From the NCBI GenBank assembly GCA_029261405.1, contig JAJDBK010000068.1:1-64000 (forward strand): 64,000 nt of DNA. Reading direction: 5' to 3'. The position numbers were made by a program, and so were the translations under genes. The DNA comes from Nitrospinaceae bacterium (GTDB lineage: Bacteria; Nitrospinota_A; UBA7883; JAJDBK01). Numbering within the stretch: position 1 is the first letter of the stretch; each line of letters opens with the position of its first letter. Shown here piece after piece: positions 46,942 through 62,161 of the stretch. The notes beneath the pieces were generated by a model. It saw only the letters and a program-made list of their open reading frames with translations. It was not told the DNA's origin and searched no databases.

Positions 46942-48024
46942 ATGGCTGAATCAGCAGACAAAAATTCAAAAACAGAAGACCCTACCGATAAAAGAATCAG
47001 TGAAACCAGAGAGAAGGGACAGACCGCCAAAAGTATCGAGGTTAACTCTTTTGTTATTCTGCTTACCACCCTCCTGTTTTTCACTTTTTTCGGCATGTGG
47101 ATGTTCCACAGGTTAGAGCTTGTTGGTGTGGAAATCTATTCCAACTCGGCCCAATATGAATTAACAACCGATTCAGTCATCTATATCTTTTCCATGGCCA
47201 TGAGCCAAGTGGGGTTGATTCTCCTCCCGTTTATGATGACCCTGGCCCTTATGGGGGTGATATCGAACTACTGGCAGAACGATGGATGGATCTTCTCCTG
47301 GACACCACTTGCGCCGAAATTCAACAAGGTCAGCCCTCTATCCGGCTGGAAAAAAATTATAGGCAAGGAGGGTTTGATGAAACTCATGACTTCGCTTGCC
47401 AAGATATCGATAATCTCCTTTGCTGTATATCAATCACTCTTCGATGAATGGGAGAAAGTCCCGTTTTTCATGGAGCTTCCTTTAGAGCAGATGCTTATGG
47501 TGTTGGGCGACGAGGTTTTCTGGTTGGTAGTTCGCGTTCTGTTCGCCATCCTTGTCATTGCCGTCATCGATTTCATCTACCAGAAGCATCAGTACAAGGA
47601 GAACATGAAGATGACCAAGCAGGAGGTGAGGGACGAACGTAAGCAACAGGAGGGAGATCCATTAATCAAACAGAGGATAAGGCAGAAACAGTTTGACGCG
47701 TTTCGCTCCAGAATGATGTCCGCTGTGCCGGAGGCTGAGGTGATAATAACCAACCCGACTCATCTTTCCGTTGCGCTTCGATACGATCGTGGCAGGGATA
47801 TGTCGCCGGTGGTGGTGGCAAAAGGAGCGGGTCATGTGGCCATGAGAATCAGGGAAATCGCAAAGGAGAACGATATCACTATGGTGGAAGACAAGCCGTT
47901 GGCACGAACATTGTTTAAGACAGTGGATATAGGCGGCGCAATACCCGAGTCACTCTACAAGTCGGTGGCCGATGTTCTGGCGTATGTTTATAGATTGAAA
48001 AGGAAAATTATTCAAGTCTCCTGA
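46942..48024 (+). CDS. flhB: Flagellar export switch protein FlhB
   Basis: FlhB switches export specificity from hook to filament after self-cleavage. The 360-residue protein starts with the family signature KTEDPTDKRISETREKGQ, has four membrane spans (about residues 30-210), and a cytoplasmic domain with the autocleavage motif NPTH (Asn271-Pro272), followed by VALRYDRGRDMSPVVVAKG. It starts 17 bases after fliR. The 131-base gap to flhA that follows is the longest break within this run. Firm. Confidence 0.97.
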   Translation: MAESADKNSKTEDPTDKRISETREKGQTAKSIEVNSFVILLTTLLFFTFFGMWMFHRLELVGVEIYSNSAQYELTTDSVIYIFSMAMSQVGLILLPFMMTLALMGVISNYWQNDGWIFSWTPLAPKFNKVSPLSGWKKIIGKEGLMKLMTSLAKISIISFAVYQSLFDEWEKVPFFMELPLEQMLMVLGDEVFWLVVRVLFAILVIAVIDFIYQKHQYKENMKMTKQEVRDERKQQEGDPLIKQRIRQKQFDAFRSRMMSAVPEAEVIITNPTHLSVALRYDRGRDMSPVVVAKGAGHVAMRIREIAKENDITMVEDKPLARTLFKTVDIGGAIPESLYKSVADVLAYVYRLKRKIIQVS

Positions 48025-48155
48025 TAACAGTCAGTTAGCATGAGACTACCGAACATTTCCAGAAAACCGCTCAAGAGGCGGTAAATATGACGCTCCGTCA
48101 AGGTGTTGACGTTTGTGCGCCAGTATATTGACGATGAGACCGGAGAACCATTTTA

Positions 48156-50234
48156 GTGTCTACTGCCCGGAATACTAAAGCGAGCATTCTAGAGCACGCC
48201 AATATCGGTGTAGCCATAGCTGTGCTCGGCACGCTGATGGTGATGGTTATTCCGGTACATCCGGGATTTCTGGACATCCTTCTGGCCACTTCGATTACTT
48301 CCGGGCTTGTTGTACTGCTGGTTTCCATATATATAACCTCCCCGTTGCAGTTCTCCGTATTTCCGGCATTGCTTTTACTTCTGGCCATATTCCGTCTTTC
48401 ACTCAACGTGGCGACAACCAGGAATATTCTGTTGCATGGAGACTCGGGGCCCGACGCCGCAGGAAAGGTGATCGAAGCGTTCGGGCAGTTTGTTGTAGGG
48501 GGTAACTATATCGTCGGAATCGTCATATTCGTAATACTCGTTATCATCAACTTCAAGGTTATAGTCTCCGGTTCGACCCGCGCATCTGAAGTCGCCGCAA
48601 GATTCACGTTGGACGCCATGCCTGGTAAACAGATGAGCATCGACGCCGACCTGAACGCGGGTTATCTTACGGAAGAAGACGCCAAGTCTCGCAGAAAAGC
48701 TCTGGAAGATGAAGCGAGCTTCTTCGGATCGATGGACGGCGCCTTGAAATTTGTCAAGGGTGACGCCGTGGCCGGTATCATCATCACCGTTGTCAACATT
48801 GTCGCCGGTTTTGCTATCGGAGTTTTCCAGCGGGAGATGGAGATTGCCGAGGCGGCCCAGGTCTATACGATCCTGACCATAGGGGATGGACTGGTCTCCC
48901 AGCTCCCTTCACTGCTGATCTCCACAGCCTCCGGTCTTGTCATAACAAGGGCCACCGGAGCCTCCGATTTCGGGCGCGAGATCTCCGAACAGCTGATGGT
49001 CAACTCCAGGGCTTTTGCCGTCGCGGCGGGGTTCCTTGTTCTTCTGGCCGTCATACCCGGAATGCCCACGTTCGCTTTCCTCACTCTCGGAGTAGGGGCC
49101 GGAGCCCTCGCCTACATGCTCTATTCGGTTGACGAGTCGGTCGCCCAGGACACAAAGGACGCGGAGGAGAAAGCCGCCGACACGCCTGCGCCGGAGAAAG
49201 TTGAAGCGTTACTGCCTCTCGACACGATGGAGCTTGAAATCGGTTACGAACTGATTCCGCTGGTCGATTCCGCTCAGGATGGGGAGTTACTCGAACGAAT
49301 AAAATCGATAAGGCGTCAGTTCGCCCTGGAGATGGGAATTATCGTTCCACCTCTGCATATCAGGGATAACCTGCAATTAAAATCGAATGAATACCAGGTT
49401 CTTATCAAAGGGGTCGAGGTGGCTCACGGTGAGCTTTGGATGAACCATCATCTTGCTATTAATCCGGGCGCCGGAGTCTCGAAGGTTCCGGGAACCGAAA
49501 CCCGCGATCCGACATTCGGTCTACCGGCCCTCTGGGTCACCGAGGCTAACAAGGAGAAAGCGAAGATGTCCGGTTATACGGTAGTCGATACAGCCACGGT
49601 CATAGCCACTCACGTCAAGGAGATCATCAGGCAAAGCGCCCACGAGCTTCTGGGACGACAGGATACGCAGAATTTGATCGACACCTTCAAGGAGACAAAT
49701 CCGAAAGTTGTCGAGGAGCTTATACCCGGCATGCTCTCTCTTGGACAGGTACAAAAAACCCTTCAGAACCTGTTGCGAGAGCAGGTGTCGATCCGCGACC
49801 TGCAGAGCATTCTCGAGACCCTCGCAGATAACGCCAACATAACAAAAGACACCGACGCCCTGACCGAATATGTCAGAGCGGCCCTGGCCCGGCAGATCAG
49901 CAAGCAGTTCAGGGGGGATGACGGATCGATGCCACTGATCACCCTGGCGCCTAACATCGAGCAGTCGGTGGCCAAGGCGGTCAAAAGGACTGAGCATGGC
50001 GCCTATCTCGCTCTAGACCCTGAGCTTGCCAGAAAAGTGGTGGAGGCGTTGCAGGAGCAACTGCCTATTTTTGATGTCCGGAACGCCGCTCCGATACTCC
50101 TTACGGCTCCGGCCATAAGAACCCATGTCAGAAAGCTAACGGAAAGGTTCCTGCCTAATCTGGTGGTCCTTTCCCACAATGAAATATCGAAGGACACCAA
50201 CATCCAGAACCTTAAAGTTGTAACCGCGACATGA
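48156..50234 (+). CDS. flhA: Flagellar export apparatus protein FlhA
   Basis: FlhA is the large export-gate subunit that binds chaperone-substrate complexes and uses the proton gradient. The 692-residue protein has about eight membrane spans in the N-terminal half, including the FHIPEP-type conserved loop (ARFTLDAMPGKQMSIDADLNAGYLTEEDAKSRR in segments near residues 146-178), and a large cytoplasmic C-terminal domain with ELIPLVD and GLPALWVTE. It begins with GTG 48156; GGAG lies about 10 bases upstream. It heads the flhA-flhF-flhG-orf79 group. Confidence 0.96.
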   Translation: MSTARNTKASILEHANIGVAIAVLGTLMVMVIPVHPGFLDILLATSITSGLVVLLVSIYITSPLQFSVFPALLLLLAIFRLSLNVATTRNILLHGDSGPDAAGKVIEAFGQFVVGGNYIVGIVIFVILVIINFKVIVSGSTRASEVAARFTLDAMPGKQMSIDADLNAGYLTEEDAKSRRKALEDEASFFGSMDGALKFVKGDAVAGIIITVVNIVAGFAIGVFQREMEIAEAAQVYTILTIGDGLVSQLPSLLISTASGLVITRATGASDFGREISEQLMVNSRAFAVAAGFLVLLAVIPGMPTFAFLTLGVGAGALAYMLYSVDESVAQDTKDAEEKAADTPAPEKVEALLPLDTMELEIGYELIPLVDSAQDGELLERIKSIRRQFALEMGIIVPPLHIRDNLQLKSNEYQVLIKGVEVAHGELWMNHHLAINPGAGVSKVPGTETRDPTFGLPALWVTEANKEKAKMSGYTVVDTATVIATHVKEIIRQSAHELLGRQDTQNLIDTFKETNPKVVEELIPGMLSLGQVQKTLQNLLREQVSIRDLQSILETLADNANITKDTDALTEYVRAALARQISKQFRGDDGSMPLITLAPNIEQSVAKAVKRTEHGAYLALDPELARKVVEALQEQLPIFDVRNAAPILLTAPAIRTHVRKLTERFLPNLVVLSHNEISKDTNIQNLKVVTAT

Positions 50235-50256
50235 AGGTCAGGGAACGGGTAACGCA

Positions 50257-51507
50257 ATGACGATAAAAAGATATACGGCGATGGATATGAACCACGCCCT
50301 GAAGATGATCAAGGAGGATATGGGATCGGACGCGGTCATCATCTCCTCCCGACCCGTCACCCAGGGTGGCGGGCGGTTTGGGCTTTTCAGCAGGAAAGTT
50401 CTGGAGGTGACTGCGGCGCCGGCCAATCACTTCCCGAAGAAACCCCCGGCTCTGAATCTTGGAGGTCTCGTCACAAGCCAGAGGGAGGCGGAACGGTCGA
50501 GAGCTTATCAGGAGGCGGAACGAACCGTCGTGGCCATGGAGCCTGTGATCGACGAGATCAGCGAGATGAAACATACCCTGGACGAAATGATCCACTCACG
50601 CGATCGTCCAGATAAATCGGCGGACCGTATCGCCGAAGATGTCCGTGAAATGAAATCGATGATGTCGTACCTGCTCGACCAGTCGGGCGTTGAGAAGAAA
50701 GAAGGGTTACCCCGGCAATTTATTGCGTTGGCGAGGATTCTTGAGGAGCGAGGGGTCGCTCCCAAATATGTGGAGACCCTCATTGACGAATTGCGGGATG
50801 GTGTAGAGGGTCATGCTGTACCAGACACGAAAACCCTCGTAAAACTCGCCGCCGTCAGGATGCGCGATACCCTGACGTTTGGAGGCGCTATGGAAAAACC
50901 GGGGCGTGGCGACAAAAAACCGAGAGTGATTGCTATCGTCGGACCCACCGGTGTCGGCAAAACCACTACAGTTGCAAAACTCGCCGCTAACCTCGTTACC
51001 CAGGGCGCCAGCGTAGCTCTCGCTACCATTGACACCTACCGGATTGCGGCGGTAGAACAGTTGAAAATCTACGCCGGTCTGCTGAATGTTCCATTGGAGG
51101 TTATTATCAACCCGGGCGACATGGCCTGGGCGTTGAACCTTAACCGGGACAAGGATGTGGTTTTTATCGATACGGCGGGCAGAAGCCAGCGCGACCTGAG
51201 TCAGATCGAGGATTTAAGACGTTTTCTGGGAGGGTCAAACGATATCGAGATTCAGTTGGCTCTCGCCGCCCCATCTTCGGAGAGACAGCAGGAGGAGGCG
51301 ATCAAGAATTTTTCGCCCCTCGGTTTCTCATCCATTATCTTCACCAAACTTGATGAAGCCGCAACGCTGGGGCCGGTGTTCAACCAGAACGTGCGCACCG
51401 GAACTCCCATTTCATATTTTACAGTAGGACAATCAGTCCCCGAAGATATAGAAGAAGCCACCGCTAAAAGGCTTTTGAACGGAATATTCAGGGCCGATAC
51501 CGCATAA
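50257..51507 (+). CDS. flhF: Flagellar SRP-like GTPase FlhF
   Basis: FlhF is a signal-recognition-particle-type GTPase that places flagella at the pole. The 416-residue protein has the N-terminal FlhF region (MTIKRYTAMDMNHALKMIKEDMGSDAVIISSR in segments), a variable B domain, then the NG domain with P-loop GPTGVGKTTTVAKLAA (about residue 228) and downstream GTPase motifs DTYRIAAVEQLKIY, DTAGRSQRD and TKLDE. It follows flhA by 22 bases and flhG follows by 20 bases with AAGGAG before it. Firm. Confidence 0.97.
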   Translation: MTIKRYTAMDMNHALKMIKEDMGSDAVIISSRPVTQGGGRFGLFSRKVLEVTAAPANHFPKKPPALNLGGLVTSQREAERSRAYQEAERTVVAMEPVIDEISEMKHTLDEMIHSRDRPDKSADRIAEDVREMKSMMSYLLDQSGVEKKEGLPRQFIALARILEERGVAPKYVETLIDELRDGVEGHAVPDTKTLVKLAAVRMRDTLTFGGAMEKPGRGDKKPRVIAIVGPTGVGKTTTVAKLAANLVTQGASVALATIDTYRIAAVEQLKIYAGLLNVPLEVIINPGDMAWALNLNRDKDVVFIDTAGRSQRDLSQIEDLRRFLGGSNDIEIQLALAAPSSERQQEEAIKNFSPLGFSSIIFTKLDEAATLGPVFNQNVRTGTPISYFTVGQSVPEDIEEATAKRLLNGIFRADTA

Positions 51508-51527
51508 CCTAAGGAGCCAGAGAAAAC

Positions 51528-52403
51528 ATGGGCGATCAAGCCGAAGGATTGAGAAAACTATTACGAAAAAACCGTTCCAAAGCGTTTGAAACGCCTGCGG
51601 CAAAAACGGGGGGAGTAATATCGGGTATTGCCATCGCCTCAGGAAAAGGGGGGGTCGGAAAAACCAATGCTGTGGCCAATATCGCCTACGCCATACAGCA
51701 AATGGGCAAAAAAGCTCTCGTCTTCGATGCGGACATGGGGCTGGGCAACGTCCATATCCTTCTGGGACTGGCTCCCCGATACAACATTCAACATGTCATG
51801 GACGGCCAGAGAAAGATGGAGGAGATCATCATCAAGGGGCCGGGGGGTATCGATATCCTGCCAGCGGGGTCAGGCCATCGCAGTTATTCGGAACTTAACA
51901 GGGACGAAATGCTAACCCTGAAGACGGAACTGGAGGCGCTGGAGGATAAATACGACGTTATACTTTTCGATATCGGCGCCGGGATCTCCGCCAACGTTAT
52001 GTATTTCTGCTCGGCGGCAAGCGACATTGTGGTCATAACCACTTCGGAGCCGACCGCTTTCGCCGACGCCTACGCTCTGATGAACGTGCTGTCCAAAGAG
52101 TATAATCAGACAGACTTCAAGCTGATAGTAAACTCCGTGAAGAGCGCCAAGGAAGCCTCCAACGTGCATAACCGGTTACAGCAGGTGGCGGAGCGGTTCA
52201 ACGCCAACTACAGAATCGAGTTGCTCGGGCATATTCATGACGACGAACTGGTGCCTCAGGCGGTTCGGCAACAGAACCTATTTCTGGAGCGATATCCCGG
52301 TTGCAAAGCTTCAAAATGTATTAAAGCCATAGCGACCACAATCCTTCAGTCGATGAAAACCCCTACATCGGGGATAGAGTGGCGCAAAGTATTCAGCGCC
52401 TGA
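51528..52403 (+). CDS. flhG: MinD-like ATPase FlhG (FleN), flagellar number regulator
   Basis: FlhG counteracts FlhF and limits flagellar number. The 291-residue protein carries a deviant Walker A ASGKGGVGKTN (about residue 35), the MinD-type FDADMGLGNVHILLGL, and the switch-II region ILFDIGAGIS. The N-terminal QAEGLRKLLRK segment resembles the FlhF-activating DQAxxLR motif (here GDQAEGLRKL), so stimulation of FlhF GTPase is likely conserved. An AAGGAG lies upstream of ATG 51528. It follows flhF directly. Confidence 0.95.
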   Translation: MGDQAEGLRKLLRKNRSKAFETPAAKTGGVISGIAIASGKGGVGKTNAVANIAYAIQQMGKKALVFDADMGLGNVHILLGLAPRYNIQHVMDGQRKMEEIIIKGPGGIDILPAGSGHRSYSELNRDEMLTLKTELEALEDKYDVILFDIGAGISANVMYFCSAASDIVVITTSEPTAFADAYALMNVLSKEYNQTDFKLIVNSVKSAKEASNVHNRLQQVAERFNANYRIELLGHIHDDELVPQAVRQQNLFLERYPGCKASKCIKAIATTILQSMKTPTSGIEWRKVFSA

Positions 52404-52418
52404 TTCGGCAATACGAGC

Positions 52419-52658
52419 ATGAATGACTTTAAATGGCGAATATGCGCCTCTCTCGGCATTCTGGGGTTTGGAATAGCCGGGTTTTCCGCGTTGTTTATGG
52501 GTTCGGAAGTCCTTACGGCGATCAAACGCGCCACTATAACCGGTGGTGTTTTTTTCTTCGCGGGCATTTTCATCTCCCATGCGCTGTTCCAGGGATATAT
52601 AGAGCTTCCAAAGGCTCCAAACATCGGCAAGGGGAAAGAAGAAGAGAAAAAACCGTAG
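52419..52658 (+). CDS. Small two-span membrane protein after flhG
   Basis: The 79-residue protein has two hydrophobic segments (about residues 8-28 and 40-58) and a lysine/glutamate-rich C-terminal tail (GKGKEEEKKP). It begins 15 bases after flhG on the same strand, so it is probably the last gene of the flhA-flhF-flhG operon. I do not recognise a family. Small membrane proteins in this position could help polar placement of the motor, but nothing in the sequence shows it. Confidence 0.65.
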   Translation: MNDFKWRICASLGILGFGIAGFSALFMGSEVLTAIKRATITGGVFFFAGIFISHALFQGYIELPKAPNIGKGKEEEKKP

Positions 52659-53056
52659 CGGTCTTTCCCCTGTTTACATCTTGACAATCCATTAACGACC
52701 TTCCCTTTTTCCGTCCGGCCTTCTTCCGTTATAGCCGGGTTTGTCGGGAATGGGGGGGGGTGGCGCTGACCGCCGGTTTCAGGGTAAGAAACTGAAGGAA
52801 AATTGGTTTAATCTGCCGAATTAGAGAATAATAAAGGCTGTCTGATGAGAAATATGCTGAATCTAATTGGCAAAGCAGGTTGCTTTTGGTAAGATTACGC
52901 CGATTTATTGAAATAGTCCATCTTGGACATATTGTTTAAAGTCGCTTGCAAAGAGATGTCATTTTGATAAATGGAGAGGCCATTTTGATAAATAACAAGG
53001 AACCGCAAGGCGGATAATTGCTACTTTATTTAACTATTTGAGGGAGGGTTTTATAT
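52659..53056 (+). promoter_or_regulatory. Region upstream of the porin: 13-bp direct repeat and promoter-like boxes
   Basis: The 398-base gap contains two copies of CATTTTGATAAAT (52960-52972 and 52981-52993) exactly 21 bases apart, two helical turns. The same bases also read as TTGATA-N17-GATAAA (52964-52969, 52987-52992), a plausible sigma-70 promoter. A strong AGGGAGGG ribosome binding site follows before ATG 53057. No gene is seen in the rest of the gap; a sigma-54-like string at 52867 has wrong spacing. Confidence 0.5.
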
Positions 53057-54328
53057 ATGCGATTCAAGCTGTCAATTCTAGCAGGAGCGCTGGCTTTGGC
53101 TGTAGCGACGCCTGCGTTCGCCGCGGACATCGACGTTTCCGGCCATATCAGGTTTCGTCCTGAAATGCGGGATAATAGCGATTTCAACGGCGACAATGAC
53201 GACAAGCAGGCTTTTATCGGAAGCCGCACACGCGTGACGGTCAATGGTACTGTGGATGAGGATATCTCCGCCAAAATAACCTTTCAGGACGTGAGGGTAT
53301 GGGGTCAAGAGAGCAATGTTAACACCTCCATGGAAGGCGCATCAATACAGGCTGTTGATATCTTCGAGGGTTATTTTCTCGTGAAAAACATCTGGGACGC
53401 ACCGGTGGCCGTCAAGGCCGGTCGCCAGACACTGGTCTACGGAGACCAGAGACTCTTGGGACACTTGGGCTGGAAGGATCAGGCGCGAACCCATGATGCA
53501 TTGAAAGTCATGGTTAACGTTGGCTCCACGCAGATCGACTTCATCGCCTCCAAGGAAGACGAGTCTGGCAAACCATCCGACGAAAAGAACGACGCCGATA
53601 TCCTGGGCGCGTACTCCGTCACGCAGATCAATGACGATATCACTCTTGATGTATACGCTCTTAACTGGAAAACCGCTGGCTCCGATAGCGACGGAAATGC
53701 AATCAAGGGTCACGACTACCTGACCTACGGTTTGAGAGGCAAGGCCGTTCTTGGCTCCTTTGATGTAACCGCTGAAGCGGCATTCCAGTCTGGCGACTGG
53801 TCTGAGGGAGTAACACAGTCCGCTAACGCTTTTGCAGTCAGGGCCGGATATAAACTGGGTGTGATGGGCGCCAGAATCGGTGTCGAGTATGATCACGGCT
53901 CCGGTGACGATGATCCGTCTGACAGCGAGCACAAAACCTTCGTTTTCCCGTATCACACAAACCACGGGAAATACGGTTACATGGACTATTTCAGTTGGGG
54001 CAACATGAACGACATCCAACTGAACCTGTCCGCCAAACCTGCGGAAAACGTGATTGTCAAACTTGACTTCCACTCTTTCACACTCGCCGAAGGGAACGAC
54101 GACTGGCTTAACGTTGTTGGGACCAAAACCTTCCTCGCCGCAACCTCCGCCGGGAACAGCACCGATGCGGGTACCGAGATTGATCTGACCGCTATCTATA
54201 AAGCGGCCAAGAACATCAAGCTGGTTGCGGGATACTCAGTATTCCAGCCGGGTAAAGCGGTCAAGGAGCGCGCAGGTAAAGACGACCAGTCGACATGGGG
54301 TTATTTCATGACGATTTTCAACTTCTGA
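53057..54328 (+). CDS. Outer-membrane beta-barrel porin, alginate-export/porin type
   Basis: The 423-residue protein has a classical signal peptide (residues 1-22, ending TPAFA-AD) and a regular alternation of amphipathic strands, starting IDVSGHIRFRPEMRDN and ending with an aromatic-terminated strand TWGYFMTIFNF, as required for outer-membrane insertion. The region KAGRQTLVYGDQRLLGHLGWKDQARTHDALKV resembles the alginate-export family of porins. It sits alone between the flagellar operon and fliA, with a strong ribosome binding site and a terminator downstream, and looks like a highly expressed gene. The exported or imported substrate is unknown. Confidence 0.83.
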   Translation: MRFKLSILAGALALAVATPAFAADIDVSGHIRFRPEMRDNSDFNGDNDDKQAFIGSRTRVTVNGTVDEDISAKITFQDVRVWGQESNVNTSMEGASIQAVDIFEGYFLVKNIWDAPVAVKAGRQTLVYGDQRLLGHLGWKDQARTHDALKVMVNVGSTQIDFIASKEDESGKPSDEKNDADILGAYSVTQINDDITLDVYALNWKTAGSDSDGNAIKGHDYLTYGLRGKAVLGSFDVTAEAAFQSGDWSEGVTQSANAFAVRAGYKLGVMGARIGVEYDHGSGDDDPSDSEHKTFVFPYHTNHGKYGYMDYFSWGNMNDIQLNLSAKPAENVIVKLDFHSFTLAEGNDDWLNVVGTKTFLAATSAGNSTDAGTEIDLTAIYKAAKNIKLVAGYSVFQPGKAVKERAGKDDQSTWGYFMTIFNF

Positions 54329-54401
54329 TCTTCTAGGTACTTTCCGGTGGAAGTCCATTTCGGGGGGAATGGCGCCTTCCATATACCGGTCTGACGTATG
54401 G

Positions 54402-54451
54402 GCCAGAAACGCTTAGCCCTGCAAGAGGCGGCGTTTCTGGCTTACGTTTTT
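54402..54451 (+). terminator. Rho-independent-type terminator after the porin gene
   Basis: GCCAGAAACGC (54402-54412) pairs perfectly with GCGTTTCTGGC (54431-54441) across an 18-base loop, and a TTTTT run follows a few bases later (54447-54451). It lies 74 bases after the porin stop and upstream of the fliA promoter. Confidence 0.75.
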
Positions 54452-54537
54452 CTGGAATTAACGTCATTGCAGAATATGTATTCCGGCAATTCCCTCTTTT
54501 TAGCCATTTTCGAGGGAAAGGGATTGTAAATCACCAC

Positions 54538-54567
54538 TTTACACGCTCGCCGCCATAATTCTATAAT
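54538..54567 (+). promoter_or_regulatory. Sigma-70 promoter upstream of fliA
   Basis: TTTACA (54538-54543, 5 of 6 consensus bases) is followed after 18 bases by a perfect TATAAT (54562-54567). Transcription would start near 54574, about 37 bases before the fliA ATG. This suggests housekeeping transcription of fliA rather than sigma-54 dependence. Confidence 0.7.
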
Positions 54568-54610
54568 TAAAGGGTTTTAATCAGCACATGGCGATAAGGT
54601 AATTTTCTTG

Positions 54611-55390
54611 ATGAAAAAGGCGTACTATTCCGAGCCGCCCCCCCAGGGGATCAAACTTGGGACCCCTGAGTCTGACAAGCTGATTATCGAATATTCGCCC
54701 CTGATAAAATATATCGCGCTTCGTCTCGCGGTCCGCCTCCCGCCGCATATTGAACTTGATGATCTTATTTCGTCGGGTGTTCTGGGCCTTATCGACGCAA
54801 TTGAGAAATTCAATCCGAACAAGGATACGCAGTTCAAAACCTATGCGGAGATCAGGATTCGCGGGGCCATGCTCGACGAACTCCGGTCCCAGGATTGGGT
54901 GCCACGCTCCGTTCGCCAGAAAGCCACTCAGATATCATCAGCATACGCCAGACTGGAGCAGACCCTCGGCAGGGCGGCGGAGGATGAAGAGATAGCCAAT
55001 GAGCTGGAACTATCGATGGACGAATTTTACGAACTGCTCCAGCAATCGGCCGGTCAGACCATTATTTCCGTCGAGGATCTGGGTGGTGTTGATAAGGATG
55101 GTGAGAAACGGGATGTCATGGAGGTGCTGGCTGGCACCAAAGCCACCGACCCGGAAACTCTGGCGCGGGTAGGTGAGATCAGGAACATCATCGCGCAATC
55201 GATCGACATGCTTCAGGAGAAAGAGCGTCTCGTAGTTTCGTTATACTATTACGAAGAGCTGACAATGAAAGAGATAGGCGAAGTCCTCGGCATCACGGAG
55301 AGCCGTGTGTCGCAGATACACACCAAATGCGTATTACGCCTGCGCGGTAAACTCCGCAAGTTCATCCATAACGAAGAAGAACTCGATTAA
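54611..55390 (+). CDS. fliA: Flagellar sigma factor FliA (sigma-28)
   Basis: FliA directs RNA polymerase to late flagellar genes. From ATG 54611 it has 259 residues, with region 2 (YSPLIKYIALRLAVRLPPHIELDDLISSGVLGLIDAIEKF in segments), KTYAEIRIRGAMLDELRSQDWVPRSVR, region 3, and region 4 helix-turn-helix (YYEELTMKEIGEVLGITESRVSQIHTK). These are the FliA/WhiG hallmarks. A TTG one codon earlier is in frame, but AAGG spacing fits the ATG better. It is monocistronic, with a sigma-70-type promoter upstream. No anti-sigma flgM is visible in the window. Confidence 0.96.
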   Translation: MKKAYYSEPPPQGIKLGTPESDKLIIEYSPLIKYIALRLAVRLPPHIELDDLISSGVLGLIDAIEKFNPNKDTQFKTYAEIRIRGAMLDELRSQDWVPRSVRQKATQISSAYARLEQTLGRAAEDEEIANELELSMDEFYELLQQSAGQTIISVEDLGGVDKDGEKRDVMEVLAGTKATDPETLARVGEIRNIIAQSIDMLQEKERLVVSLYYYEELTMKEIGEVLGITESRVSQIHTKCVLRLRGKLRKFIHNEEELD

Positions 55391-55722
55391 CCTCCTAACT
55401 TTCTTCTTTATTTGATTAATGACAGAAAACGCGGGTATGTGTTCCCCACATGTTTACTTGCAGAGCTAAAAACGATCTTTTCAAGCCCTCTCGTTCTTCC
55501 CTGGCTGTAATAAACGGATAACTTTATCATGGAACTTTCATAACGGGGCCGGAATAAAAGCTCCGGGTAACCTTCGATCACCTGTTAAAACAGTTCTTAC
55601 CTGAAAAGGAGTACTAATTTATTAGGGCTAAGCGCTATAATAACGCTTGCGACTGGTGGTTATCAATTTGGTGGGTTGCGCGCTTACGCTTGCACGCTTG
55701 TTATTAAGAAGGGTTGTTTCTT
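55391..55722 (+). promoter_or_regulatory. Intergenic region with TATAAT inside an inverted repeat
   Basis: The 332 bases between fliA and the corrinoid gene hold no recognised gene. AAGCG (55630-55634) and CGCTT (55644-55648) flank a perfect TATAAT (55636-55641), so a repressor bound to the repeat would cover the -10 box; no good -35 is present. I looked for the conserved boxes of a cobalamin riboswitch and do not see them. ATGTG-TTCCC-CACAT near 55436 is a weak hairpin after fliA. Confidence 0.5.
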
Positions 55723-56379
55723 ATGGGGCATGTCCTGAACCAGCAGGAGGAGTTCGAGCAGGCTATTCTCTCCATGGATACCTTTGCGGCCAGAAAAATC
55801 ATTGAAAACCTCCTTGAATCCTTACCCGATTCTGAACACCGGCAATCTATCGAAAAACTCGTTGTCCACACCATGGAGTGTATCGGCGTTGGTTGGGAGA
55901 GCGGAGAGGTGGCGTTGTCCCAGGTCTACATGGGAGGGCGTATATGCGAAAAACTTCTCTCCGATATAACTTTTAGCGACACCACCTCCCATACGAACCA
56001 GCTCAATACCGCCCTCGTGGTTCTCGAAGACCGGCATATGCTCGGGAAAAGGATTGTTAGCTCATCCCTGATCTCCGCAGGTCTCGATTTTGCCGATTAC
56101 GGGAGTATGCAAGCCGATGATCTGGTGGGGAAAGTCGCGCAAGACGAGATTGAGGTTCTTCTGATCTCCGCACTGATGTTACCCTCCGCCCTGAGAGTCG
56201 AGAAAGTCCGGGAGCTGTTGGAGGCCAGGGGGATCAAAGCGCATATCGTGGTTGGTGGCGCCCCGTTCCGGTTTGACAAACAACTCTGGAAACAGGTTCG
56301 CGCCGATTGCATGGGAGAAACCGCTTCCGACGCGGTTGCGATACTGAAAAAATTAAACGATGAGAAGAAAAATGCCTGA
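55723..56379 (+). CDS. Corrinoid (cobalamin)-binding protein, methyltransferase-associated type
   Basis: The 218-residue protein has the two-domain build of MtbC/MtmC-type corrinoid proteins: an N-terminal helical cap (about residues 1-85) and a Rossmann B12-binding domain. The base-off ligand motif DxHxxG is present as D103-R-H105-M-L-G108, followed by ISALMLPSA and VVGGAPF, which line the cofactor pocket. It should carry a methyl-corrinoid. ATG 55723 has AAGGG upstream; the longer TTG start at 55714 is less likely. It overlaps the next gene by 20 bases. No substrate-specific methyltransferase (MtaB/MttB type) lies nearby, so the methyl source is unknown and a sensory role is possible. Confidence 0.88.
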   Translation: MGHVLNQQEEFEQAILSMDTFAARKIIENLLESLPDSEHRQSIEKLVVHTMECIGVGWESGEVALSQVYMGGRICEKLLSDITFSDTTSHTNQLNTALVVLEDRHMLGKRIVSSSLISAGLDFADYGSMQADDLVGKVAQDEIEVLLISALMLPSALRVEKVRELLEARGIKAHIVVGGAPFRFDKQLWKQVRADCMGETASDAVAILKKLNDEKKNA

Positions 56380-57415
56380 GAGTGAAATGACATCGCTTGA
56401 GCGGGTATTAACAACTCTCTCCCATAAGGAACCGGACCGTGTTCCCCTCTTCTTGCTTCTCACCATGCACGGAGCAAAAGAAGTGGGCCTCTCGATAGAG
56501 GAGTATTTCTCCAGGTCGAAAAACGTAATTGAAGGTCAAGTCCGAATGCTCGAGAAATACGGGCACGACTGTTATTACAATTTCTACTACGCGCCTCTGG
56601 AGGTGGAGGCGTTTGGAGGAGAGGTAAAATATATAGAAAACGGACCGCCAAACTCCGGTAGGCCAATTATAAGTTCGATAGATGAAATCAGAAACCTCGA
56701 ACCTCCCGATGTGAAAAACTCTCCAGTCCTCCGAAAGGTTCTGGAATCGGCCAGCGGCCTGCAAGAGAAAGCGGACGGCAAGGTTCCGGTTATCGGAGTG
56801 GTGATGTCGCCTTTCTCCCTGCCGGTAATGCAACTTGGTTTCGATAAATATATCGAACTCATTTATTCCGAGCCGGAGCTTTTTACAAAACTGATGGATG
56901 TGAACACCACATTTTGCATAGATTGGGCGAACGCGCAACTCGAAGCCGGTTCCACCGCCATAGTATATTTCGACCCGGTCTCATCCCCCGGAATTATTCC
57001 TCGCGAGAAATATCTTGAAACCGGTTTCAAGATTCAAAAAAAGGTTATCTCAGCGGTAAACGGTCCTGTCGCCATACATTTGGCGTCGGAGAGGTGTCTG
57101 CCCATTTCAGAAGACCTTTGCGAAACCGGCGCGGTAGGTGTCGGCATAAGCGCCATGGAGGATCATGACAAACAAAAATCGGCTTTTAAAGGAAAAATGT
57201 CGCTCGTTGGCCCGTTAAACGGTATCGAAATGGCCCGATGGAGCGCCGAAGAGGCTGAGAATGTTGTCAAGGAAACGATAACAAAGCTGGGACCGGGCGG
57301 TGGATTTATACTGTCAGACAACCATGGCGAAATACCGTGGCAGGTACCATCCGAAGTACTACACGCCATCACCGACGCGGTTCGCAAATGGGGCCGATAC
57401 CCTGTAAGGGGATGA
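56360..57415 (+). CDS. UroD/MtbA-family protein with altered zinc-site residues
   Basis: The 351-residue protein belongs to the uroporphyrinogen-decarboxylase/MtaA-MtbA superfamily, whose corrinoid-linked members move a methyl group between a corrinoid protein and a thiol using a zinc site (HxC plus a later Cys). Here the first motif reads H240-L-A242, and the usual C-terminal PGC reads DNH with H322, so two zinc cysteines are replaced, though Cys246 and Cys254 lie close by. Overall fold signatures (EPDRVPLFLLL, TGAVGVGISAMED, GPLNGIE) remain. Start may be ATG 56360 or 56372. It overlaps the corrinoid gene, which strongly suggests a working pair. Enzymatic activity is uncertain. Confidence 0.82.
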   Translation: MRRKMPESEMTSLERVLTTLSHKEPDRVPLFLLLTMHGAKEVGLSIEEYFSRSKNVIEGQVRMLEKYGHDCYYNFYYAPLEVEAFGGEVKYIENGPPNSGRPIISSIDEIRNLEPPDVKNSPVLRKVLESASGLQEKADGKVPVIGVVMSPFSLPVMQLGFDKYIELIYSEPELFTKLMDVNTTFCIDWANAQLEAGSTAIVYFDPVSSPGIIPREKYLETGFKIQKKVISAVNGPVAIHLASERCLPISEDLCETGAVGVGISAMEDHDKQKSAFKGKMSLVGPLNGIEMARWSAEEAENVVKETITKLGPGGGFILSDNHGEIPWQVPSEVLHAITDAVRKWGRYPVRG

Positions 57416-57418
57416 TCC

Positions 57419-57985
57419 ATGTCGAAGAAGTCCGCCATAGTTATCTGCGATAAATTCGTTAATGAAGTTAAGGAAGTTATCAAAGGTAAAGAAGAAGAGT
57501 ATGATCTTATAGTCTATGAAGCCAAATGCCACCTTCCCAGAAAAATGAACTGCACTGTGTTTTGTCACGATATTCACCGTAAGAAATATAAGAGCGTGCA
57601 TGTCTTCAGCAGTGGATGTATAAAGGATAAAGAAGAACATAGCGAACTGTGTAAGACATGCTCCTTTCACCCAAGGGATATGTGTCTTAACATGATCGCA
57701 AGGATGGATCGAGTTAACGAACATCTGCGTCAAGGGGCTTTCCTGGTCTCCCCCGGCTGGCTTGCAAAATGGCGAACTCACCTTGAGGACTGGGGTTTGG
57801 CGGACGAACTTGCGGAGGAGTTTTTCAATGAATCCGCTAACAAAATCCTGCTCCTGGATACACAAGTCGATCCGGAAAGCCTGCAAAACCTTAAAGATAT
57901 TTCCGAGGCGGTAAAACTGCCGTATGAAGTAGACTCCGTGGGGCTTGCCCATTTCCGTGAATTCGTGATTGGTAGTGTCCACTGA
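57419..57985 (+). CDS. Cysteine-rich DUF1638-like protein
   Basis: The 188-residue protein resembles DUF1638 proteins, which occur beside corrinoid methyltransferases: a CxxxxHxxP-like start (YEAKCHLP), a GC turn (VFSSGCI) and FLVSPGWLAKW near residue 110. It is unusual in holding eight cysteines in the first 89 residues (10, 37, 45, 49, 67, 78, 81, 89), with CKTCSFHPRDMC at 78-89, which suggests a metal or iron-sulfur site. No membrane span or signal is present. It begins 3 bases after the UroD-like gene and the kinase starts 27 bases after it. DUF1638 similarity is my reading and moderate; the function is unknown. Confidence 0.65.
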   Translation: MSKKSAIVICDKFVNEVKEVIKGKEEEYDLIVYEAKCHLPRKMNCTVFCHDIHRKKYKSVHVFSSGCIKDKEEHSELCKTCSFHPRDMCLNMIARMDRVNEHLRQGAFLVSPGWLAKWRTHLEDWGLADELAEEFFNESANKILLLDTQVDPESLQNLKDISEAVKLPYEVDSVGLAHFREFVIGSVH

Positions 57986-58012
57986 ATACTTTCCAGAACG
58001 ACGAGTCAGAAG

Positions 58013-59617
58013 ATGGCTACTGATATATCCAGAAAACTGGCCGATTACGGATTAGCGTTCGATCTGATCTCTAACATCACAGCCGTAAAGAGTGAAAAAG
58101 AGGCGATTGATTCAATTTTTGAAGTTTTTGACGCCATCTGCGCCCCCGCAAGATCTTTCTATCTGCCGTTTCGGGGAAGCGAAACGGGTGATATTTATGT
58201 TAATCCACCGGGGACGGTTTGTGACGAGACTGTAAAAGACTCAATGACCACCTACGATGGTGAACAACTTTGGAAAGAAGAGAAGGCCGGATTCATTTTC
58301 CGGGTTATGCACAACGAAGAAACGTTAGGCGTATTTCAACTCGAAGAAGTTCCCTTTCCACAATACAAAGAACATTACCTAAGCCTTGCATCAAATATAA
58401 ACAGCGTACTGGGCCTTGCCATCTCGAACGCCAGGGTATATCAGAATCTAGAGAGCCTGGTGGAGGAGCGGACCGAAGAGCTGGCGAATACGAATAAAAG
58501 CCTTGTAAAAGAGATCAAGGAGCGTAAAAAGACAGAAGTTCTGCTGGTGAAAGCAAAAGAACACGCTGAAAACGCCACAAAGCTAAAAGACAAATTTGTT
58601 TCTTTCGTTTCGCACGACCTGAAATCTCCCCTTACCGTTGTCCAGGGTTTCCTGAAAATGATTCGGCTGGAAGTATTCGCGTTGTCAAGTGACAGAGTAA
58701 AAGCGATGATTGACGCCGCTATAAAATCATCAGATGAAATGATGGCTCTGATAGAAAACCTTCTGAGCATCAGCAGGCTGAAGACAGGTGTCCTCACACC
58801 GCAGTACGAATTCCTGAGCCTCGCCCTCATTGGGTCAAGGACAGTCGCTGATTTCAAGTCACTGGCCGATGGTAAGGGGATTGATTTGCGTCTTGAGATA
58901 ACGGATGGGGGGAGGATATACGCCGATGAAACCCTTTTTACCCAGGCGGTTCAGAACATCGTGGCCAACGCCATCAAATTTTGTGGCGCCGGAGATACCA
59001 TAACGATCTGCACCCCTCCAGAAGAGCAAGCGACCTTATGTGTGAAAGATACCGGCCCTGGTATCGGAGAGGATGTGATCGAAAAAGTGTTCCAGTACGG
59101 GAGCAATGTTTCAACTACAGGAACCGCTGGAGAAACAGGTACCGGACTCGGTCTGCCATATACCAAAGAGATTATGGAGGCGCACAATGGATCGGTAACC
59201 ATCGAATCAAAAATGGGGCAAGGTTCATTATTCAGCCTCAAAGTCCCTCACGTCAGGCCGAAAATCCTCGTTGTGGACGACAATTCAAGTTTCCGGATGG
59301 TTCAAAAACAGTTTATGAGCTACCTTGGTGTCGATATCGTGGAGGCTGTAAATGGTAAAGAGGCATTGGAGCTTATTGAAAATATGGAGTTTCACCTGTT
59401 AATTACCGATATAGAAATGCCGGAAATGGATGGGCTGGAACTCCTGAAAACCATAAAAGCCTCCATCAAAACAAAATCGTTACCAGTAATAGTGATTACG
59501 GGTAAGTATGGGATGGAGATTCGCGAAAAGGTATTTCAACTTGGGGCGGATGATTTTTTGACTAAGCCGTTAGATAATGAGGATTTCATTCCCAGGGTTA
59601 GAAGGTTTATTTCCTGA
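58013..59617 (+). CDS. Soluble GAF-like hybrid histidine kinase with receiver domain
   Basis: The 534-residue protein has no membrane span. A GAF-like sensor fills about residues 1-150, a coiled coil (VEERTEELANTNKSLVKEIKERKK) leads to HisKA with His201 in FVSFVSHDLKSP, then HATPase_c (NAIKFC, DTGPGIGED, GTGLGLPYT) and a C-terminal receiver with Asp466 in ITDIEMPEMDG and an intact Lys-Pro. The kinase-receiver part is clearly paralogous to that of the MASE1 kinase at 28880-32338, including the tail FIPRVRRFI. It is the last gene of the corrinoid module and may read its methylation or ligand state. No DNA-binding output is encoded nearby. Confidence 0.9.
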   Translation: MATDISRKLADYGLAFDLISNITAVKSEKEAIDSIFEVFDAICAPARSFYLPFRGSETGDIYVNPPGTVCDETVKDSMTTYDGEQLWKEEKAGFIFRVMHNEETLGVFQLEEVPFPQYKEHYLSLASNINSVLGLAISNARVYQNLESLVEERTEELANTNKSLVKEIKERKKTEVLLVKAKEHAENATKLKDKFVSFVSHDLKSPLTVVQGFLKMIRLEVFALSSDRVKAMIDAAIKSSDEMMALIENLLSISRLKTGVLTPQYEFLSLALIGSRTVADFKSLADGKGIDLRLEITDGGRIYADETLFTQAVQNIVANAIKFCGAGDTITICTPPEEQATLCVKDTGPGIGEDVIEKVFQYGSNVSTTGTAGETGTGLGLPYTKEIMEAHNGSVTIESKMGQGSLFSLKVPHVRPKILVVDDNSSFRMVQKQFMSYLGVDIVEAVNGKEALELIENMEFHLLITDIEMPEMDGLELLKTIKASIKTKSLPVIVITGKYGMEIREKVFQLGADDFLTKPLDNEDFIPRVRRFIS

Positions 59618-59866: not shown

Positions 59867-62161
59867 TCAGACGGAGCAGACTGTCCTTACCTGCTCGATA
59901 GTAGTATCTCCTTTCAGAACTTTAAAAATGCCGTCCTGTTTTAAAGTTCTCATTCCCGCCGCAATCGCGCTTTTCCGAATATCGTCCACAAGCGCTCTCG
60001 ATTGAACCAGTCGTTTCGTTTCGGGGTCCATCGTCAGAACTTCGTGTAGCCCCGTTCTGCCCCGGAATCCGGTGTCGTTGCATTTGTCGCAACCTTTCGG
60101 TTTGAACATTGTGACAGTGTCGGGAGTAGCGGAAAGTTCAGGCCAGAATTCCGTGCTATATTCTTGCGCCATAAGATCAAGCTCTTCGATGGTTGGCTTA
60201 TATTGTTCCTTGCAATCCTTGCACAATGTGCGGACAAGACGTTGAGCGAGAACCATCAGAAGCGCATCGGCAAAATTGAACGGGTCAATGCCAAGGTCGA
60301 TGAGTCGGGTAATGGTTTCCGGGGCAGAGTTTGTGTGCAGGGTAGAGAAAACCAGGTGACCTGTGAGGGAAGCCTCGATTCCCATGGAGGCGGTCTCCTC
60401 GTCCCGCATTTCGCCGATCATTATAACATCGGGATCAGCCCGGAGGAACGCGCGCAGTGCGGATGCGAAAGTGAGGTTGATGGCAGGGTGCATCTGAACT
60501 TGTCGGAGTCCGTTCTGGGTTATTTCGATAGGATCCTCGGCTGTCCAAATCTTTCGTTCCGGTGTGTTGATATAACCGAGAGCGGAATGCAGGGTGGTCG
60601 TTTTACCCGAACCGGTAGGTCCAACGACCAGAATAATGCCGTATGGGGTTTTTACCTGTTGTTTGAAAGCGTCTTCATTACGTTTTGAGAGGTTCATCTT
60701 GTCGAGCGGAATCGGCTCTGAGGCGGCCAGGATACGCATAACAGCGTCTTCGTTACCGCCGTATGTGGGAACTGTCGCCACCCGAAGTTCGATGGTTTTG
60801 GAAGGTCCGAGTTTTAGCTGGATTTTTCCGTCCTGGGGCAATCGTCTTTCGGCGATATTCAGGTTCGACATGATTTTTATTCTGGCCATAAGAGCCTTTT
60901 TCCAGTTAGCCGGAATTTGTTTATATTCCTGGCAGACACCGTCGATCCTGATTCTTATAATGGTGTTTTGTTTACCCGGGTAAGTTTCTACATGGATATC
61001 GGAAACGCCTTTGTTGTAGGCGTCGATGATAATCTGGTTGGCCAGTTTCACTATCCCGGAATCCGATTCCGATACCGACATGCCGGTATCATCAAATTCC
61101 GCCTCAGTGATATCGCTATCCTCTTCGATATCGGCCAGAACAGCGTCGAAATCCCCTCCACTTGTGACCGATTTACCTGAAAGTTTGGCGATAACTCTCA
61201 GAATGTCTGACCTCATTCCAACGGCCAGTTCGAATTTTCCGTTTTTAACGATCCTTTGCAGATCGGAAACCTTGTTCTGGTCGGTAGGATCCTCACAAAT
61301 TATGAGCATCTTATCCTTTTCCATCTTGTAAGGTGACCAGCCGTTGGCTTCCATGAACTTGAATGGGTTTTTCATCCTCAGTTGGTCGAGTAGCTCCAGG
61401 GGGGGGGTGTAGCTATCGTCGTAGTCGATGAAACGAAGGTTGTAATATGCGGAGAGCGACCTGCCTATCATCTGTTTTTGAATATTGTAGACTTTCATCA
61501 GAACATCGGCCAGTTCCCATTTCCGGGCGCGGGCCTCTTCCATCGCTTTTTCGAGGTCAGCTTTGGAGATGACATTCTGCCTGATAAGGAAATCGAATCT
61601 TGACTTGTATTTTACCGAACGTTTCTGATGATTATAGAAAGCCAGGCCGAGAACATCGGTAATCTCCTGCAGGGCGCTTCTGTCCATAGGAGAGAAGGAG
61701 CCTCCCCCCTTCTTGTTGATTATCTGGATGACACCCAACAGATATTTTTCGTACATCAACGGTTGAGCCAGAACCTGTTTGGTCCGGTAACCGGTTTTTT
61801 TATCCCACGATTTGTCGAATTTAAGGTCGGGATATATAGCCAGCAGTTCTATATCGTTATAAGCGTCGTTAACGGAAATCTGGGCGCCGGTGGAGGCTAC
61901 GTATCCTGCCACGGAGAGTTTATCTATAGGGACACGTATTTCGTAGGAATTGTCCCCCGCCATATATTTTGAGAAGATTTCCCTTTTGTTTTTATCAACC
62001 GCGTAGATGGTGATCCGGTCGGCGTCGAAGAGTGAGGCGATGGAGTCTTTGAGGTGAATGAGGATCTCGTCAAGATTTTCCGCTGAGTGGATCTGGTGAG
62101 TAATGCTTTTGAGCCGCTCAAGGAACTGGAGGCGAATATCGCTTTCTGTTTGTTCAGCCAT
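59867..62161 (-). CDS. GspE/PilB-family assembly ATPase with N-terminal GAF domain
   Basis: The 764-residue protein combines a GAF domain (about residues 20-185; DADRITIYAVDKNKREI, LAQPLMYEKYLLGVIQIINKKGG), an MshEN/T2SSE N-terminal domain (about 195-330, including FDFLIRQNVISKADLEKAMEEA and AYYNLRFIDYDD) and a hexameric secretion ATPase core. Walker A is GPTGSGKTTT, the Asp/Walker B region reads LRADPDVIMIGEMRDEETA, and the zinc tetracysteine is LCKDC...GCDKC. It would power type IV pilus or type II secretion assembly, with the GAF domain adding ligand control. No pilus or secretion genes lie nearby, so its partner machine is elsewhere. Residues for activity are intact. Confidence 0.9.
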   Translation of the reverse strand: MAEQTESDIRLQFLERLKSITHQIHSAENLDEILIHLKDSIASLFDADRITIYAVDKNKREIFSKYMAGDNSYEIRVPIDKLSVAGYVASTGAQISVNDAYNDIELLAIYPDLKFDKSWDKKTGYRTKQVLAQPLMYEKYLLGVIQIINKKGGGSFSPMDRSALQEITDVLGLAFYNHQKRSVKYKSRFDFLIRQNVISKADLEKAMEEARARKWELADVLMKVYNIQKQMIGRSLSAYYNLRFIDYDDSYTPPLELLDQLRMKNPFKFMEANGWSPYKMEKDKMLIICEDPTDQNKVSDLQRIVKNGKFELAVGMRSDILRVIAKLSGKSVTSGGDFDAVLADIEEDSDITEAEFDDTGMSVSESDSGIVKLANQIIIDAYNKGVSDIHVETYPGKQNTIIRIRIDGVCQEYKQIPANWKKALMARIKIMSNLNIAERRLPQDGKIQLKLGPSKTIELRVATVPTYGGNEDAVMRILAASEPIPLDKMNLSKRNEDAFKQQVKTPYGIILVVGPTGSGKTTTLHSALGYINTPERKIWTAEDPIEITQNGLRQVQMHPAINLTFASALRAFLRADPDVIMIGEMRDEETASMGIEASLTGHLVFSTLHTNSAPETITRLIDLGIDPFNFADALLMVLAQRLVRTLCKDCKEQYKPTIEELDLMAQEYSTEFWPELSATPDTVTMFKPKGCDKCNDTGFRGRTGLHEVLTMDPETKRLVQSRALVDDIRKSAIAAGMRTLKQDGIFKVLKGDTTIEQVRTVCSV

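Follow-up and report, generated by a model that had tools for sequence, protein, structure and literature searches.

Corrinoid methyltransferase systems, such as MtaABC, MtbABC, MtgBC and CdmBCA, comprise a methyltransferase I (MT I), a corrinoid protein, a methyltransferase II (MT II) and the RamA/RACo activator. We analyzed a DNA stretch of 64,000 nucleotides from a Nitrospinaceae bacterium (assembly GCA_029261405.1, contig JAJDBK010000068.1, positions 1-64,000 of the forward strand, hereafter the window), in which four co-directional plus-strand genes at 55723-59617 encode a corrinoid protein, a UroD-like protein, a Cys-rich DUF1638 protein and a hybrid histidine kinase. As in those systems, a UroD-fold protein and an MtbC-type corrinoid protein are encoded together, and DUF1638 is sometimes linked to them there. 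However, no MT II, activator or substrate pathway adjoins the four genes, the MtaA zinc cysteines have been lost, and the module is wired to a GAF-kinase or to GGDEF. Based on the analyses described below, we consider it highly probable that this is a dedicated sensory module, and probable that the four genes form one soluble corrinoid-dependent sensory module, as the split form of a widespread three-gene module. The four genes are as follows:

55723-56379, plus strand, corrinoid (B12) binding protein of 218 residues, MtbC/MtgC-like, with a helical cap (PF02607) and a B12-binding domain (PF02310)
56360-57415, plus strand, UroD-superfamily protein of 351 residues (PF01208, 9.6e-56), with an MtaA-like fold and without the MtaA zinc cysteines
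57419-57985, plus strand, Cys-rich DUF1638 protein of 188 residues (PF07796), stand-alone in the window
58013-59617, plus strand, soluble hybrid histidine kinase of 534 residues with GAF, HisKA, HATPase_c and receiver domains (Pfam)

Several other described systems share parts with this locus. The DUF1638 accessory proteins of Phaeobacter (PGA1_c13340) and Ruegeria (SPO2162) belong to the same Pfam family, share three common cysteines and have a corrinoid partner, but they are stand-alone and metabolic, whereas the DUF1638 of the module belongs to a divergent subfamily fused to signalling domains. In addition, the stand-alone DUF1638 proteins compared here carry a Cys/His/Cys/Cys set, in contrast to four Cys in the module. 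The type 1 mlp gene clusters (PMC10418091) likewise pair, outside methanogens, a corrinoid protein with MtaA-like proteins of the UroD type; however, they contain several Mlps and RACo, a kinase is unmentioned, and the zinc site was used there to infer S/Se chemistry. The CarH/LitR photoreceptors employ a B12-binding domain in regulation, but as one light-driven protein with a MerR-type DNA-binding domain, whereas the module has separate corrinoid, UroD and DUF1638 components. Finally, soluble hybrid histidine kinases with GAF input have the same order of GAF, HisKA, HATPase and receiver domains, while the GAF domain of the module would receive its input from DUF1638, which is a separate protein in the window and part of the same polypeptide in most relatives.

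In order to survey the gene linkage, we scanned genomes for loci with the UroD alignment alone, so that neighboring genes were not used for selection, and obtained 75 loci, 72 of them at a useful score. The corrinoid gene adjoins the UroD gene in 71/72 loci. Downstream content was counted in the 64/72 loci with at least 1500 bases downstream of UroD, where DUF1638 was found in 56, GAF in 58, at least one of them in 60, and both in one polypeptide in 52. The output following GAF (58 loci) is a kinase in 40, GGDEF in 11, both in 1, a small CxxCKxI tail in 4, and unassigned in 2. As a background, kinase or GGDEF domains occur in 23/319 other plus-strand open reading frames (ORFs) of the same loci. 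When Pfam was applied to 63 third-gene proteins, DUF1638 was assigned in 48, HATPase_c in 40, HisKA in 28 and GGDEF in 13. By record title, the hosts represent about 16 groups at phylum rank from both bacteria and archaea, and include Bacteroidota, sulfate reducers, Chloroflexota, Nitrospirota, Nitrospinota, Beggiatoa relatives, cable bacteria and methanogens. As judged from the sequences surveyed, the corrinoid and UroD proteins are a constant pair, whose usual partner, by fusion or adjacency, is DUF1638, leading into GAF and then into an interchangeable output. The sensory system proposed in the earlier note is thus strongly supported by the fusion of DUF1638, GAF and output in most loci, by the varying kinase and GGDEF outputs, and by the lack of a recurring metabolic gene.

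In the window, DUF1638 and the kinase are separate polypeptides, and the kinase comprises the following domains:

58037-58462, plus strand, GAF domain (residues 9-150; by profile and homologue model), the region that relatives have fused to DUF1638
58586-58789, plus strand, HisKA dimerisation/phosphoacceptor domain with SHDLKSP (PF00512, 3.1e-13)
58925-59251, plus strand, HATPase_c domain (PF02518, 1.5e-21)
59264-59599, plus strand, receiver domain (Response_reg, PF00072, 1.1e-27)

The window protein therefore contains the HisKA, HATPase_c and receiver domains of a hybrid histidine kinase, while Pfam names no N-terminal sensor domain in it. A profile built from its residues 9-150 matched the region directly after DUF1638 in relatives. 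The GAF fold was modelled on the fused homologue L010, which is homologous to this kinase region; the stretch between its DUF1638 and output is predicted to be a GAF domain (overall predicted local distance difference test score, pLDDT, 90.4), with Z of 15.5 to the GAF of PDE5A (3mf0) and 13.6 to that of KdpD (4y2f). Because the window kinase starts at GAF, DUF1638 and the kinase of the window together represent the fused protein, split at the junction of DUF1638 and GAF. The same split is seen in two other Nitrospinota, where the two are likewise separate adjacent genes, and the same kinase gene lies downstream of DUF1638 in L004 and L005. Among the 24 genomes of the phylum Nitrospinota in our collection, this DUF1638 is present in 3, and all 3 have the order corrinoid, UroD, DUF1638 and GAF-kinase. 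Two matching Nitrospinota contigs appeared in the UroD scan (L015 and L034). The window proteins show 62-63% identity for UroD and 37-44% for the kinase with those of the two other Nitrospinota.

We then compared the protein distances of the input components. The correlation was r = 0.75 between UroD and the corrinoid protein, 0.66 between UroD and DUF1638, and 0.77 between the corrinoid protein and DUF1638, and 0/2000 permutations were as high. On the UroD tree, the output label changes at least 10 times, a count that is approximate since the tree is weakly resolved (25/65 inner branches open). Since the distances correlate and the output label changes repeatedly, it seems that the input stays together while the outputs swap. 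The weak resolution of the tree counts against the sensory module, as do several other observations. The genomes are mostly metagenome-assembled genomes (MAGs). By profile, neither DUF1638 nor GAF was found downstream in 4/64 loci (L012, L052, L061 and L071), although L071 has a downstream kinase with a GAF-like start that the profile missed. DUF1638 occurs without GAF in two loci (L062 and L064), and GAF without DUF1638 in four (L014, L024, L074 and L076). Because some loci have GAF without DUF1638 or neither of them, DUF1638 is not strictly required.

Some loci show variant arrangements. In two Nitrospirae loci (L045, 11071-14102, and L059, 2612-5363), a DUF1638-GAF-GGDEF protein is directly followed by a second GAF protein, which is a kinase in L059, and one input may feed two outputs there. 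A short CxxCKxI...CxxC tail replaces the enzyme output in L014, L023, L024, L030 and L074. In the cable-bacterium relatives L055, L057, L058 and L067, two further kinases come after the module in a conserved order, one on the plus and one on the minus strand.

The corrinoid protein shows the cap and B12-binding domain architecture of the MtbC/MtaC/MtgC type, with both PF02607 and PF02310 above cut-off, and it contains one predicted ligand motif:

56029-56046, plus strand, DRHMLG, corresponding to the DxHxxG lower-ligand motif, with a His predicted from the sequence to bind cobalt

In this protein family, the DxHxxG, SxL and GG motifs are required for His-on cobamide binding. All three are invariant in 71/71 homologues, with D103, H105 and G108 among the fixed residues. 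No cut-off of a substrate-specific corrinoid subfamily was reached (pyl_corrinoid, 64 vs 215.3; MtbC, 59.9 vs 350), and the corrinoid, UroD and DUF1638 proteins all fell below every functional cut-off of NCBIfam.

The AlphaFold model of the UroD-like protein (pLDDT 95.2) shows the TIM-barrel fold of MtaA/CmuA, and its best solved match is the methylcobamide:CoM methyltransferase of M. mazei (4ay7/4ay8; for 4ay8, template modelling scores of 0.86/0.88 and a root-mean-square deviation of 2.3). The protein scored below the MtaA and CmuA family cut-offs (TIGR01463, 121 bits vs 235.4; NF040654, 81.5 vs 400), and also below that of the uroporphyrinogen decarboxylase HemE (TIGR01464, 59.4 bits vs 302.95). 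The His-X-Cys zinc site is altered to HxA: His is kept in 66/68 homologues, while the first Cys is replaced by Ala (65) or Gly (3). The second zinc Cys is also lost, as none of the 68 homologues has a Cys at 318-326, a C-terminal position that was set by eye, the profile alignment to 4ay7 ending before it; this position coincides with a near-invariant HGEIP segment. UroD is the most conserved module member, with mostly 53-63% identity to the window protein and 28 invariant columns. Zinc-free methyl-donor transferases of the UroD superfamily do exist, namely CdmB and the Moorella O-demethylase (PMC13222342), and catalysis is therefore still possible for this protein. Like CdmB, the UroD-like protein could act as a methyl-donor transferase without zinc, and the absence of a substrate-specific methyltransferase stated in the earlier note may therefore be incorrect.

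The window DUF1638 protein matched PF07796 with 36.4 bits against a gathering cut-off of 27. Its four putative metal or cluster ligands are as follows:

57446-57448, plus strand, Cys10, first putative ligand, Cys in 58/60 sensor-type and 17/17 stand-alone proteins
57527-57529, plus strand, Cys37, putative ligand specific to the sensor subfamily, Cys in 59/60 sensor-type and 0/17 stand-alone proteins
57617-57619, plus strand, Cys67, third putative ligand, Cys in 52/60 sensor-type and 17/17 stand-alone proteins
57683-57685, plus strand, Cys89, fourth putative ligand, Cys in 52/60 sensor-type and 17/17 stand-alone proteins

When 17 stand-alone DUF1638 proteins from other genomes (among L093-L121) were aligned, Cys10, His38, Cys67 and Cys89 were found in 17/17, and this set is likely a metal or cluster site in a family of unknown function. 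The window protein does not belong to this Cys/His/Cys/Cys type but carries the sensor-type set of four Cys, in which Cys37 replaces His38 of the next column; both C37 and H38 are present in the window protein. The sensor-type DUF1638 is, as far as these alignments go, a divergent subfamily specific to the putative sensors. In the model of the fused L010, Cys7, 35, 65 and 87 are positioned at or just past the ends of the first four strands (7, 31, 62 and 83), as would be expected if they formed one shared site. In Phaeobacter, DUF1638 and a RamA-like protein are needed for B12-dependent methionine synthesis (PMC5764234), and in Ruegeria grown on N-osmolytes, DUF1638 is more abundant together with RamA (PMC12478193). 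Based on the evidence from these two bacteria, DUF1638 acts together with corrinoid proteins, and in the module it leads into GAF. Other searches with this protein gave little: the window DUF1638 is so divergent that a protein-only search of genome contigs with it yielded no relative, and the UroD alignment was used instead; a DUF1638 profile search of solved structures gave chance-level matches only; Foldseek and VIA-align were run with the combined DUF1638-GAF model, and their matches fell on its GAF half; and PHROGs contained no match for DUF1638.

Here, we propose how the module might work. The UroD-like protein would bind a small molecule without an MtaA-type zinc; this ligand would most likely donate or accept a methyl group. 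The action of the UroD-like protein would change the cobalt state of the corrinoid protein among methylated Co(III), Co(II) and Co(I). By means of a four-cysteine metal or Fe-S site, DUF1638 would dock to the corrinoid protein and read this state, and the GAF domain would pass the change to the HisKA/HATPase core. The phosphate would then be transferred to the receiver of the kinase itself and further to a partner outside the window. Since DUF1638 and the GAF-kinase are separate polypeptides here, the relay would depend on contact between two proteins that are joined covalently in relatives. The chances that the organocobalt state is the message appear about even. We tentatively extend this to a general and mobile enzyme-based chemosensor of bacteria and archaea, in which a UroD protein specific to a methyl donor may load or unload the corrinoid cobalt and the four-Cys DUF1638 may read organocobalt into kinase or cyclic di-GMP signalling; this fuller version falls a little short of an even chance.

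We need to consider, however, that the locus might be a metabolic methyltransferase with its own regulator, in which the UroD and corrinoid proteins remove methyl groups from a substrate, the corrinoid is reactivated by DUF1638, and the kinase controls the pathway. The existence of zinc-free transferases of this superfamily (CdmB and the Moorella O-demethylase; PMC13222342) and the metabolic role of DUF1638 in Phaeobacter (PMC5764234) are consistent with it, but in 52/64 loci DUF1638 shares a polypeptide with GAF and a kinase or GGDEF output, and the outputs are swapped while the input is kept. An all-against-all comparison of flanking ORFs revealed no metabolic family common to several loci and no recurring neighbor naming a ligand, and no RACo-like protein was found in any fetched flank. 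Moreover, the RamA-type activator RACo is absent from 20/50 module-bearing genomes, many of them Bacteroidota, and MTTB from 34/44 genomes including that of the window, these absences coming mostly from MAGs without completeness data and following lineage. Because of the DUF1638 fusions and the absent activators, we ranked a metabolic operon below the sensory module and regard it as quite unlikely. The earlier note had made its proposal depend on the kinase accompanying the other three genes and on no donor-specific methyltransferase being always linked, and both points held, since a kinase or an equivalent output does co-occur in the survey and MTTB is so often missing. That the four genes are unrelated neighbors has a negligible probability: no support for it was found, the recurrence and fusion across about 16 phyla speak against it, and chance adjacency was rejected on the linkage counts compared with the 23/319 background.

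Even if the module is sensory, its signal might be redox or a gas (O2, CO or NO) acting at the corrinoid cobalt or at the Cys site of DUF1638, with UroD as a scaffold or a cobalamin loader. The four-cysteine site and the loss of the zinc cysteines from UroD fit such a sensor, and RACo is absent in 40% of the genomes tested, so that catalytic Co(I) cycling may be unneeded. The gas- and redox-sensing GAF of DosS is also among the structural neighbors of our GAF model, a shared fold that is no proof of function. On the contrary, the conservation of UroD, the highest in the module, and its near-invariant HGEIP suggest that UroD has a particular ligand or reaction and is not a scaffold, and we consider this alternative somewhat unlikely. 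Light sensing through photolysis of an alkyl-corrinoid, as in CarH, was also considered, since B12-binding domains of the same fold are photoreceptors in CarH/LitR (PMC11796333). However, there is no DNA-binding fusion, the CarH model scored 17.6 bits where its cut-off is 400, CarH chemistry involves neither a UroD nor a DUF1638 partner, and several hosts, by record title, belong to groundwater or anaerobe lineages, which makes light a very unlikely signal.

In the same phylum, corrinoid and UroD proteins are coupled to a two-component pair in another operon as well. In the window genome, this operon (L089, 3460-9610 of G000:C1, minus strand) encodes an NtrC-type regulator, a corrinoid protein (DVHDLG), a UroD-[2Fe-2S]-RACo fusion of 953 residues and a PAS histidine kinase. 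Ten other loci of the phylum were fetched, and all four genes are present in 9/10, the tenth contig ending before the NtrC gene. Among the 289 genomes searched, full-length UroD-[2Fe-2S]-RACo fusions were seen only in this phylum. This operon supports the sensory reading of the window module, or at least shows that such coupling is not a one-off. It also modifies the earlier statement that a corrinoid activator is missing: none is encoded within the window, but the genome carries a single RACo, the one fused to the second UroD on contig C1. A cytochrome bd oxidase subunit I-like gene (PF01654; L089, 821-2761) adjoins the second operon on the same strand.

In the open-access literature searched, we found no description of signalling by such a module. 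Its parts and outputs are known families; should the chemistry hold, the input would represent a new class, which to our knowledge would be the first class of corrinoid signal transduction that is not driven by light. Corrinoid methyltransferase machinery, known as metabolism, would also serve as the input of soluble sensors with exchangeable kinase or diguanylate cyclase outputs, and the uncharacterised DUF1638 family would gain a testable role, with a Cys-ligated site in contact with the corrinoid protein. This raises the question of what cells of anoxic habitats sense through B12 chemistry.

The gene layout also agrees with the earlier note, which had described four consecutive plus-strand genes with a 20-base overlap at correct coordinates. 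The overlap of the corrinoid and UroD genes spans 56360-56379, exactly 20 bases, and the following gaps are 3 bases between UroD and DUF1638 and 27 bases between DUF1638 and the kinase. The corrinoid gene starts with ATG, and an alternative TTG start is possible at 55714. An Rfam search found no cobalamin riboswitch at the locus, and promoter and terminator scans gave signals at chance level only. The four-gene module stands alone between two neighbors, both named from sequence:

54608-55390, sigma-factor gene, upstream neighbor of the module
59867-62161, minus strand, ATPase gene, downstream neighbor of the module

Upstream of the module, the genes at 46942-55390 look by sequence like a cluster for flagellar export and its regulation, with FlhB, FlhA, FlhF, FlhG and a sigma factor of the flagellar type, and the module might have a role in regulating motility.

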